37,206 nt of DNA from contig JADGDI010000015.1 in the NCBI GenBank assembly GCA_016744975.1, positions 1 through 37,206 on the forward strand, read 5' to 3'. Below the pieces are notes generated by a model. That model searched no databases. It was not told the origin of the DNA and saw nothing but the letters and a program-made list of their open reading frames with translations. Source of the stretch: Hyphomicrobiales bacterium. Lineage in GTDB: Bacteria; Pseudomonadota; Alphaproteobacteria; Rhizobiales; OSC116. Of the stretch, positions 15,445-37,206 are shown in pieces; positions within the stretch are counted from its first letter, which is position 1; the number at the start of each line of letters is the position of its first letter. The translations under genes were made by a program, and so were the position numbers.

Positions 15445-15498
15445 AATATACAAACCAAGCCTAATATACAAACCAAGCCTAATATACAATCAAACCCT
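15445..15498. repeat. 18-bp tandem repeat between Nudix and DUF6111 genes
   Basis: AATATACAAACCAAGCCT occurs twice without a mismatch (15445-15462, 15463-15480), followed by a degenerate third copy, AATATACAATCAAACCCT (15481-15498). It fills most of the gap inside an operon, so it would be transcribed. The copies contain no internal dyad. Confidence 0.9.
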
Positions 15499-15512
15499 AA
15501 CTGAGACCTGCC

Positions 15513-16145
15513 TTATATATGCAATTTATCACGAAAATTCTTGAGCATATCAGCCGTTGCCCCCCAAATGAAATAATCATTATATTCCAAAGCATAAAAT
15601 TTGTGAATATTACCATTCCAATTTTTACTATATATCTTAAAATTGCCCTCTGACATCAAAAAATCAAGAGGCAAATCAAATATTTCATCAACTTCATTTG
15701 GGTCACCAATTAATTCAAAGCCTTGACTAACCTTTGCAACCACTGGGCAAATGTTAAATCCTGAGCCAATTTGGTAAATATCCAAATAGCCTAAAATATC
15801 AATATATTGCGACTCGAGACCAATCTCCTCATACGCCTCACGCATTGCTGCTGTTTTGGCATCCGCATCATCTTGCTCCATTTTCCCACCAGGAAACGCA
15901 ATTTGCCCAGCATGTTTTTTCATATGCAATGGACGGCGGGTCAAAATAACGCTCGGTTCAGGTTTATCTACAATAGCAATTAAGACCGCGGCTTGGCGAT
16001 AAGCGGCAGCATTAAAGCGCCAAGATGCCTTATCCAAATTTGGGTATTTATTGCCATCAATGATCAAGGCAGTTTCATCTACAAAAAAATCTTCAGGCAC
16101 ATCTTGATGAATTTTCTGCTTTATGCTGTTGAGTAATTTTTGCAT
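15513..16145 (-). CDS. CoA pyrophosphatase (Nudix hydrolase)
   Basis: Nudix hydrolase of the UPF0035/NudL type, predicted to cleave CoA to 3',5'-ADP and phosphopantetheine. The UPF0035 block preceding the Nudix box is visible as VILTRRPLHMKKHAGQIAF followed by PGG (about 66-87). The Nudix box is GGKMEQDDADAKTAAMREAY leading into EEIGL, with REAYEE supplying the metal-binding glutamates. 210 residues is normal. Its ATG directly follows the DUF1285 stop with no gap, so the two are coupled. Confidence 0.93.
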   Translation of the reverse strand: MQKLLNSIKQKIHQDVPEDFFVDETALIIDGNKYPNLDKASWRFNAAAYRQAAVLIAIVDKPEPSVILTRRPLHMKKHAGQIAFPGGKMEQDDADAKTAAMREAYEEIGLESQYIDILGYLDIYQIGSGFNICPVVAKVSQGFELIGDPNEVDEIFDLPLDFLMSEGNFKIYSKNWNGNIHKFYALEYNDYFIWGATADMLKNFRDKLHI

Positions 16146-28670: not shown

Positions 28671-29147
28671 ATGAGCAATATGAAAGCAACAACATCCGTA
28701 GCTACAACATCCGTAGCTACAACATCCGATGCGGCAATTATACTCAAAATTGTAAGAGCATCCATAACACAATTATGCGTGCTTGATCACAGCAACGATA
28801 AAGCCAAGCTTGACGAATGGTTAAACAATAAAACTTTAGAAAATATTCTAAAATGGATTGAAGATGAAAAGTTATATTTTATTAAGGCAGAATTAAATGG
28901 CCAAATAGTCGCGATGGGTTGCGCCAATTTGCAAGGTCGTATTTTAATGAATTATGTATCGCCAAAGCATCAATATTTAGGCGCAAGCAAAGCCATTATG
29001 CAAGATTTAGAGCGATTTTTATTAACTTCTGGCATAACCAAAGCAACCTTAGAATCCAGTAAAACCGCTCTAAAATTCTACCAAGCCTGCAATTGGCAAA
29101 TTAAAAATGGTGAAGATGATACAATTCAAATGTTTAAAATATTATAA
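28671..29147 (+). CDS. Small GNAT family N-acetyltransferase with repeated N-terminus
   Basis: A 158-residue GNAT domain: YFIKAELNGQIVAMGCANLQ (central strands), then VSPKHQYLGASKAIMQDLER as motif A with a Q-x-x-G-A loop, and LESSKTALKFYQACNWQ as motif B. Residues 6-20 are three copies of a five-residue unit (TTSVA) encoded by a 15-base tandem repeat. The ATG at 28671 and another at 28680 are both possible, and neither has a good ribosome binding site. The start might even lie after the repeat, but no ATG follows until well inside the domain. Substrate is unknown. Confidence 0.82.
   Translation: MSNMKATTSVATTSVATTSDAAIILKIVRASITQLCVLDHSNDKAKLDEWLNNKTLENILKWIEDEKLYFIKAELNGQIVAMGCANLQGRILMNYVSPKHQYLGASKAIMQDLERFLLTSGITKATLESSKTALKFYQACNWQIKNGEDDTIQMFKIL
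28689..28733 (+). repeat. 15-bp tandem repeat in the GNAT gene N-terminus
   Basis: ACAACATCCGTAGCT is present twice exactly (28689-28703, 28704-28718), and a third copy (28719-28733) diverges at its end. The unit is a multiple of three, so copy-number change would keep the frame. Confidence 0.92.
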
Positions 29148-35347: not shown

Positions 35348-35923
35348 ATGAAATCATCAAAACCAATCATCGCACTCGACATGCCGACATCAGAAGAACC
35401 ATTAAATAACAACCAAAAACGCTACCTAGAAATATGTGACGAAAAGCTTGGCTTTGTACCAAATGTCTTACAAGCATATGCTTGGAATTCAAGCAAATTT
35501 GATGGCTTTACAAATATGTATAATGACCTGATGCTTGCCCCATCGGGCTTAACAAAACTAGAAAGAGAAATGATTGCCGTTGTGGTTTCAAGTGCTAACG
35601 GCTGCTATTATTGCCTAGCAGCTCATGGTGCAGCAGTAAGGGAGCTATCAGAAGACCCAAAACTTGGCGAGCAAATGTTAATGAATTATCGCACAGCTAA
35701 ACTCACCTTAAAACAACGTGCAGCATTAGACTTTGCGTATAAGCTGACTTTAAACCCAAATGAAATAGATGAACCTGACCGTCAAAAGCTAAGAGATGCG
35801 GGCTGGGTTGACCGCGAGATTTGGGATATTGCAGCGGTTGCTTCTTTCTTCAACATGTCAAACAGGATGAGTGGTGCAATTGACAATCGCCCCAATGACG
35901 AATATCATTCAATGGCTCGATAA
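35348..35923 (+). CDS. Peroxidase-related enzyme, AhpD-like (carboxymuconolactone decarboxylase fold)
   Basis: A 191-residue AhpD-like protein of the uncharacterised peroxidase-related (TIGR01926-type) group. The redox motif is CYYCLAAH (about 80-87), with C-x-x-C followed by the conserved His four residues on. The N-terminal LGFVPNVLQAYAWNSSKFDGF and the LTKLEREMIAVVVSSANGC lead-in are typical. The C-terminal RDAGWVDREIWDIAAVASFF and NMSNRM also match. GAGGAAG precedes the ATG. It lies 113 bases after lysR on the same strand but with a fresh ribosome binding site; a role in the neighbouring pathway is not evident. Confidence 0.9.
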   Translation: MKSSKPIIALDMPTSEEPLNNNQKRYLEICDEKLGFVPNVLQAYAWNSSKFDGFTNMYNDLMLAPSGLTKLEREMIAVVVSSANGCYYCLAAHGAAVRELSEDPKLGEQMLMNYRTAKLTLKQRAALDFAYKLTLNPNEIDEPDRQKLRDAGWVDREIWDIAAVASFFNMSNRMSGAIDNRPNDEYHSMAR

Positions 35924-36019: not shown

Positions 36020-36200
36020 TGCTGACTGCCAATAAACCTATGAAATAAAAGAAACACATATTTTAGTGTATACCTCCATTATTATCGGCTCAAATATGAG
36101 TTTATATTCAATTAAATTAGAGAGATAGTTTATTCTAAATATTTTTTTAATATATGAGCATTACATTGAGAATTATAGGGGGCTTATTTAGGAGTTGCGA

Positions 36201-37206
36201 ATGCATAAATTCTTGATTAAAATTCTCTTAGTCACTCAGTTTTTATTTTTAGGGTATATTAGTGCTCAAGCGGCAAGTTGGCAGGTTAGGAAGGTCAGCG
36301 GCCAAGTCATATTTGTAAAAAAAGGATATGCGGAAAAGTGGCTAGAGGTAAATGATCAGTTTGCACCAGGGGATCGCATTGAAACCTTAGCGTCAGGTTC
36401 TGCTTCGCTATCGCGTTACGGCGAGGCAATGATTATCTCATCCAACAGTATACTCATGTTACCAGAAGAGGGTAATGACGGTTATATCACCACCATTTTT
36501 CAGACTTTAGGCACTGCGTTATTTTCAGTCAAAAAGAAACAAACTAAACATTTTGAAGTAAGAACGCCCTATGCGGCGGCTTTGGTAAAAGGCACTACCT
36601 TTGCAGTTAACGTAAATCAAAGTAACTCCCAATTGCAGGTATTCGAGGGTGCCATCGAGCTTAGTGGCAAAAAGCGGAGTAAAAAAGTTATCGTTGCTGC
36701 AGGTAGGAAATCCGTCACCCCACATAATGTAGCAGCCAAAGTCATTGTAAAAAAAGTTGCCAATACCTCACGAATTAACCCCCATTTAGGTGATAATGTT
36801 AAAAAACTGGCAGAAACATATATTAATAAAATTGCAATTGGAAAAAGCAACAAAAATCAGTTTACAAATAACATCATTAGACCGTTTAAAACACCGGGTA
36901 AGTCGATAAATAAAAAGAAAGTATTTAAAGGCAAGATCAGTAAAGCTTTGGTTGAAAAAATACGAATAGTTAAAAAACCAAAGCCTACAAGAAAAACACC
37001 TAAACCGATCAGAGCAAACAGCATTGAACAGTCAAATAGCAAAGCTGCAACAAATGACAATCAAGCAAAAAATGGATATGTTCCTAAAGCCGCTAAGCAC
37101 AAGCCAGAGAAAAATGGATATGCACCTAAAGCCGCTAAGCACAAGTCTGCGAAAAATGGATATGCACCTAAAGCCGCTAAGCACAAGTCTGCGAAAAGTA
37201 GATATG
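36201..37206 (+). CDS. FecR domain-containing secreted protein with C-terminal lysine-rich repeats (partial, 3' end outside window)
   Basis: The frame is open from the ATG at 36201 to the right edge (335 complete codons, no stop). A signal peptide (MHKFLIKILLVTQFLFLGYI, cleavage near SAQA-A) leads to a FecR-type beta domain (about 26-170): VRKVSGQVIFVKKG, FAPGDRIETLASGSASLSRY, and VRTPYAAALVKGTTFAVNV, the diagnostic T-P-x-A/x-x-x-V-K-G-T-x-F block. It lacks the anti-sigma transmembrane layout of E. coli FecR, so it is more like the periplasmic FecR proteins of unknown role. After a basic linker, tandem 14-residue repeats begin at residue 290 (NGYxPKAAKHK). GGAG is eight bases before the ATG. 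Confidence 0.85.
   Translation, partial: MHKFLIKILLVTQFLFLGYISAQAASWQVRKVSGQVIFVKKGYAEKWLEVNDQFAPGDRIETLASGSASLSRYGEAMIISSNSILMLPEEGNDGYITTIFQTLGTALFSVKKKQTKHFEVRTPYAAALVKGTTFAVNVNQSNSQLQVFEGAIELSGKKRSKKVIVAAGRKSVTPHNVAAKVIVKKVANTSRINPHLGDNVKKLAETYINKIAIGKSNKNQFTNNIIRPFKTPGKSINKKKVFKGKISKALVEKIRIVKKPKPTRKTPKPIRANSIEQSNSKAATNDNQAKNGYVPKAAKHKPEKNGYAPKAAKHKSAKNGYAPKAAKHKSAKSRY
37068..37206 (+). repeat. 42-bp tandem repeat in the FecR-domain gene
   Basis: Three full 42-base units (37068-37109, 37110-37151, 37152-37193) and part of a fourth reach the window edge. They encode KNGYxPKAAKHK plus two variable residues. Units 2 and 3 are identical; unit 1 differs at the Val/Ala position and at its final codons, and unit 4 has begun to diverge (Lys-Ser-Arg-Tyr). 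The total copy number is unknown because the sequence stops. Confidence 0.95.

Follow-up and report, generated by a model that had tools for sequence, protein, structure and literature searches.

A lysine-rich tandem repeat tail on an exported FecR-domain protein and its probable association with a CHASE2-EAL signalling protein

Background

CHASE2 is a common periplasmic sensor domain. Its ligands were stated to be unknown in a study of Burkholderia contaminans, in which the BiofilmReg operon was found to encode a LysM-FecR protein, without proven function, together with a CHASE2 histidine kinase (PMC5192318). In Campylobacterota, a CHASE2 adenylate cyclase is encoded in one cluster with a FecR-domain outer membrane protein and a TPR protein, and the authors interpret this cluster as one signal pathway (PMC9239204). 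The CHASE2 cyclases CyaD1/D2/K of Sinorhizobium meliloti receive their signal through NsrA, an outer membrane protein (PMC13001267), and the CHASE2-cyclase/Clr pathway of the same species has the FecR-domain protein SMc02177 among its targets (PMC5498481). Apart from a list that names FecR among the domains found with prion-like regions (PMC4606120), the literature searched contained no description of repeat tails on FecR proteins of the kind reported here. The FecR domain, its fold and the FecR-CHASE2 linkage are already known; what appears to be new is the systematic presence of compositionally shifting, in-frame tandem tails on a CHASE2-associated FecR subfamily.

Results

The window, i.e. 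the whole stretch of 37,206 nucleotides that was analysed, is the entire contig C66 of a 2.77-Mb draft genome consisting of 191 contigs, and the fecR-like gene is its final gene (Table 1). The encoded protein matched the Pfam FecR family (PF04773) over residues 58-153 with an E value of 6.4e-11 and 43 bits, against a gathering cut-off of 24. This was the sole Pfam match of the protein at E values up to 1, and no LysM domain was found among the matches. The AlphaFold2 model, computed with 24 sequences, consists of the confident all-beta domain listed in Table 1, a short helix at 175-185 and a tail predicted to be disordered (pLDDT below about 50). Foldseek retrieved anti-sigma regulators of the FecR type with probability 1.00, namely 4m0n at E 6e-8 and, at E 2e-7, the signalling domain of PupR (6ovk); there was no other significant match beyond FecR-type regulators. 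Together with the signal peptide recognized by reading, these matches bear out the preliminary description, in which an exported protein of FecR fold had been proposed.

Table 1. Coordinates of the fecR-like gene, its domains and its repeat units in the window
Feature	Position	Strand	Remarks
Carboxymuconolactone-decarboxylase-like gene	35348-35923		upstream neighbour of the fecR-like gene; by sequence reading
Shine-Dalgarno-like AGGAG	36190-36194	+	6 nt ahead of ATG 36201; sequence
fecR-like gene	36201-37206	+	3' end cut by contig end; continues on contig C189 (L031:1-176)
Signal peptide MHKFLIKILLVTQFLFLGYISAQAA	36201-36275	+	by sequence reading: basic n-region, hydrophobic core, AQAA before S26
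All-beta folded FecR domain	36276-36755	+	mature residues 1-160, pLDDT mostly 85-97; Pfam match 36372-36659
NPHLGDNVKKLAETYINKI segment	36774-36830	+	modelled as helix; carries NPHxGxDxxKL motif
Basic low-complexity linker	36831-37070	+	disorder predicted for most of length
Repeat unit 1 NGYVPKAAKHKPEK	37071-37112	+	TRF, sequence
Repeat unit 2 NGYAPKAAKHKSAK	37113-37154	+	TRF, sequence
Repeat unit 3 NGYAPKAAKHKSAK	37155-37196	+	DNA identical to unit 2
Start of unit 4 (SRY)	37197-37206	+	partial, cut by contig end

Some weaker similarities were also recorded. The fifth Foldseek match, 5ix9, annotated as 'cell surface anchoring domain', covered a 59-column part (TMt 0.66, E 0.11). The LapA retention module of NCBIfam matched residues 28-97 (window positions 36282-36491) with an E value of 1e-4 and 22 bits, which at a cut-off of 50 does not make the protein a member. 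Both fall in the first half of the FecR domain and point the same way, the LapA match being below threshold. Lsa33, a surface adhesin of leptospires, was also weakly similar (E 4e-11), far below the curated cut-off.

TRF detected an array of period 42 at the end of the window, with 3.3 copies, 92% matches and a score of 229, the highest of any array in the window. At a lag of 42 the best 84-nucleotide self-match of the tail comprised 79 of 84 bases, the maximum reached in 2000 codon shuffles of the tail being 49. The units vary at a few codons only (V/A, PE/SA and NG/SR), and the codons for PKAAKHK are invariant across the regular units. The TRF result and the shuffle test confirm the lysine-rich 14-residue repeat in a maintained frame that had been described before, and the recent duplication proposed for units 2 and 3 is supported by their DNA identity and by the PKAAKHK codons common to all regular units. 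A second forward frame (37024-37206) is also open through the array, where it encodes DMHLKPLSTSLRK repeats; it stays open as a result of the period being divisible by three, and is probably due to chance. Two other short arrays occur in the window: an 18-bp unit present three times at 15445-15500, beside a NUDIX-like gene (15513-16145, minus strand), and a 15-bp in-frame unit (ATTSV), also in three copies, at 28685-28728, at the start of an acetyltransferase-like gene.

When the same genome was searched at the DNA level, the one further occurrence of the array opened C189, a contig of 8.3 kb, in the order SRYAPKAAKHKSAK twice, SRYAPKAAKHKPVK, a degenerate KKYRSKKGKHKGKK and a stop codon. Counted over C66 and C189, the array therefore has a minimum of seven units (six regular and one degenerate). 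The exact overlap of the two contigs is 12 bases only. C66 breaks off in the first SRY, so that the simplest view is that C66 and C189 flank a single array, the middle of which was beyond the assembler; this view is based on the shared array and on the gene order in a relative. The gene had been expected to run beyond the window, and its downstream part was indeed located on C189. An end of the repeats at a stop just past the window, combined with one copy number in all strains, had been named as the refuting outcome; the stop does lie not far past the window, but at least three further units plus a degenerate one precede it. The mature protein thus comprises at least 363 amino acids, with a pI of 10.6 and a charge of about +69, of which the array and the end contribute +36 over about 99 residues.

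An assembly artefact, in which one short stretch was duplicated by error, was considered and rejected, because the unit types differ on the two sides (NGY versus SRY) and because two contigs ending inside the array are what is expected of a true near-identical array in a short-read assembly. As to the positions of the breaks, exactly 120 bases separate the start of C189 from the base at which the last unit first becomes distinguishable (L031:1-120), an offset that would fit a k-mer assembler entering a periodic tract of at least that length. The end of C66 (37156-37206) falls just before the base where the V and A units differ. The break positions are a possible trace of an unresolved or population-variable array.

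On C189 the stop of the fecR-like gene is followed by a gene on the opposite strand (L031:231-3020), the end of which lies fifty-odd bases past that stop. It encodes a protein of 929 amino acids with CHASE2 (PF05226, E 3e-32), PAS, GGDEF and EAL domains. Because its GGDEF site is degenerate (RFSELVFAVI, with FSELVF at the site) and the EAL, N, E, DD, K, E and Q motifs are all present in the phosphodiesterase domain, the protein is, to judge from its motifs, probably a c-di-GMP phosphodiesterase and probably not a cyclase. The adjacency of the two genes presupposes that C66 and C189 are adjacent. The genes are convergent (tail-to-tail) and do not share an operon or a strand; a search for an intrinsic terminator between them found none.

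In 61 genomes of the order, 37 of 87 FecR matches were located at most 5 kb from one of 78 CHASE2 matches, where by a rough estimate less than one such case would be expected by chance. An alignment-based scan of named genomes yielded 80 loci; a scan with the single protein had found no relative. Most of these loci were in Bradyrhizobium, and others in Kiloniellaceae, Sphingomonas, Tepidicaulis, Hwanghaeella and two gammaproteobacterial Nitrincolaceae MAGs. CHASE2 was encoded beside FecR in 72 of the 80, in most cases with EAL, and four of the other eight loci stop at a contig edge. The convergent order was shared by the window locus, contig C23 of the congeneric genome G002 (Hyphomicrobiales MAG DT_99) and the two Nitrincolaceae loci (L129 and L132); in most other relatives the two genes are on the same strand. 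The pair on C23 is orthologous to that described here. Its CHASE2 partner has a degenerate GGDEF site (RFSDNIFGVI), and S/N repeats take the place of lysine repeats in its FecR tail.

The NPHxGxDxxKL motif is common to the window protein, four close paralogues in G002 and two Nitrincolaceae proteins. Three of the four paralogues are not beside CHASE2; among the G002 FecR paralogues without CHASE2 (L026:6266-7861 and L028:2106-3827), one is beside a PAS-GGDEF gene and one near an MCP gene. The Nitrincolaceae MAGs DT_75 and DT_74 encode the same FecR subtype, with the NxHxGxDxxK motif and an S/N-rich tail, as DT_99 (L125/L126), and their FecR genes are convergent with a CHASE2-GGDEF-EAL gene, as in DT_99, a MAG of the same series. 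Transfer between classes sharing a habitat is a possible origin of this common subtype.

Within the genus, FecR and a linked CHASE2 occurred both in the window genome and in G002. G001, G003 and G005 had no detectable FecR and only the unlinked CHASE2-GGDEF-EAL gene of the conserved neighbourhood described next, and in G004, which is 75% complete, neither FecR nor CHASE2 was seen. A second CHASE2-GGDEF-EAL protein without FecR nearby is encoded at L205:1622-4468 (contig C148 of G000) and at L206, L207, L208 and L209; the G000 copy has a degenerate GGDEF site (RYTDKIFGII), and in five of the six genomes of the genus the gene lies in a conserved neighbourhood (amidohydrolase, FAD oxidoreductase and MATE transporter). 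Because the genus retains such a protein without a nearby FecR gene, CHASE2 can work without FecR.

Repetitive tails proved to be typical of the FecR subfamily, which, like the adjoining CHASE2-EAL signalling gene, the preliminary description had overlooked. Arrays with a TRF score of 50 or more were present in 75 of 112 non-redundant tails, in none of the 112 FecR domains and in three of 73 CHASE2 partner genes. The periods ranged from 6 to 138 nt and were multiples of three in 174 of 175 arrays. The tails are 128-541 amino acids long, and some long tail was retained in all 70 complete tails measured; other FecR subtypes of the same order are mostly without such tails. In composition they include GN or GNN runs, SSN runs, KAKKLKVKSPK-like repeats and A/E/K-rich or D-rich stretches. 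The tails of the four close G002 paralogues are S/N/G, S/N, K-rich and non-repeated, and built of 18-residue KKARRLEKAKKAKQAKLA repeats. A short motif, G..[LI][DN]....T.GL, is conserved in most Rhizobiales tails (80 of 129 proteins). A search for NGYxPKAAKHK in other FecR proteins, which had been suggested earlier, found it in none of the 129 checked except the window's own, a single PKAAK being present in one Kiloniellaceae tail. Since the motif is unique to the window protein in this set, the array, as judged from sequence, is a private version of the subfamily's habit of repetitive tails. Most relatives' tails are nearly neutral and G/N/S-rich; thus, the basic charge is not a requirement of the family.

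Discussion

Taking these observations together, we favour, with a probability of a little under 60 per cent, the view that the window protein is an exported, soluble periplasmic accessory partner of the CHASE2-EAL protein, with a disordered polycationic tail that duplicates in frame and serves as an envelope tether. The FecR protein would sense or present a ligand for the CHASE2-PAS-GGDEF-EAL protein, its folded domain touching the periplasmic CHASE2 domain and altering the c-di-GMP hydrolysing activity of EAL. The recurrence of the gene pair, the joint presence or absence of FecR and the linked CHASE2 in the genus and the published FecR-CHASE2 linkages speak for the accessory-partner reading. 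The convergent orientation, without co-transcription, speaks against it, as do the three G002 paralogues away from CHASE2, the CHASE2 protein of the genus with no nearby FecR gene and the nearly neutral tails of most relatives. The disordered C-terminal tail, evolving through in-frame tandem duplication, would be a fast-evolving tether. Its charge suggests that it probably binds anionic envelope or matrix polymers, and as a polycation it would most likely hold the protein to LPS, exopolysaccharide or perhaps extracellular DNA, so that the CHASE2 partner could sense the state of the envelope or matrix. The length of the array would then set reach or avidity, not a specific fold.

It could be argued that the tails are merely unconstrained disordered extensions that collect tandem duplications by neutral slippage, and that the FecR domain alone matters. 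The free variation of tail length and composition, the wide range of periods and the complete difference between paralogues within one genome are consistent with this explanation, which we regard as unlikely while giving it serious weight. Against it, a long tail was kept in every complete case, the periods are almost all multiples of three, the short Rhizobiales motif is conserved, and many partner genes and FecR genes outside the subfamily gather no arrays. These features suggest that selection maintains a tail as such, if not its particular sequence.

It appears quite improbable that the protein is an adhesin or matrix protein, exposed on the surface or secreted, with FecR as its anchor and with lysine-rich repeats that attach to polyanions of the host or matrix; the link to CHASE2-EAL would then reflect only shared regulation by c-di-GMP. 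The strongly cationic array is compatible with such a role, as are the similarities to Lsa33 and the LapA retention module, both far under curated cut-offs, the partial fold similarity to 5ix9 and the listing of FecR with prion-like regions (see above). However, the window protein showed no sign of an outer-membrane barrel, a lipobox, RTX or type I secretion, the conserved association is with a periplasm-facing sensor domain, and the basic tail is missing in most relatives. The reading as a truncated or misannotated anti-sigma regulator of the classical FecR type, controlling an iron-uptake ECF sigma factor, is hardly credible in spite of the PF04773 match and the fold match to PupR/FecR-type domains, being excluded by the gene structure, in which a signal peptide of about 25 residues directly precedes the FecR domain without a cytoplasmic anti-sigma domain or membrane helix, and no ECF sigma factor or TonB receptor gene being present in the flanks read.

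The accessory-partner reading can be extended, in a form that we consider rather unlikely, to a large family of CHASE2-associated FecR proteins whose disordered tails, built of repeats, are hypervariable (G/N/S-, K-, A- or D-rich). Such tails would be tethers or antennae that can be adjusted, their copy number and chemistry tuning which envelope or matrix material is sensed and thereby setting c-di-GMP in the cell; in the window, the lysine repeat would represent a recent switch from a neutral to a polycationic tail.

Should the FecR partner be what presents or detects the signal, and should the tail decide what is bound, the pair would offer a concrete handle on the question of CHASE2 ligands, and it is amenable to genetics in the well-studied Bradyrhizobium. 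It would also be a clear example of repeat expansion that repeatedly remodels a signalling accessory protein, leaving the folded domain and the enzyme partner almost untouched.

Among the known systems, BiofilmReg resembles the window locus in that an exported FecR-domain protein is encoded beside a CHASE2 sensor. It differs in having LysM (COG4254) instead of a repeat tail, a histidine kinase instead of GGDEF-EAL, and a same-strand operon instead of convergent genes. The Campylobacterota cluster shares the FecR and CHASE2 linkage, whereas its output is cAMP and, in the partial account available, a tandem tail is not described. In S. meliloti, too, CHASE2 enzymes are signalled through an envelope protein and a FecR-domain protein belongs to the regulon, but the output is cAMP, NsrA is a beta-barrel, and the link reported for SMc02177 is that of a Clr target, not an action on CHASE2. 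The FecR/PupR cell-surface signalling domains (6ovk, 4m0n) have the periplasmic domain fold of the window protein; they belong to membrane-bound anti-sigma regulators, whereas the window protein is soluble and exported, and carries a disordered repeat tail.
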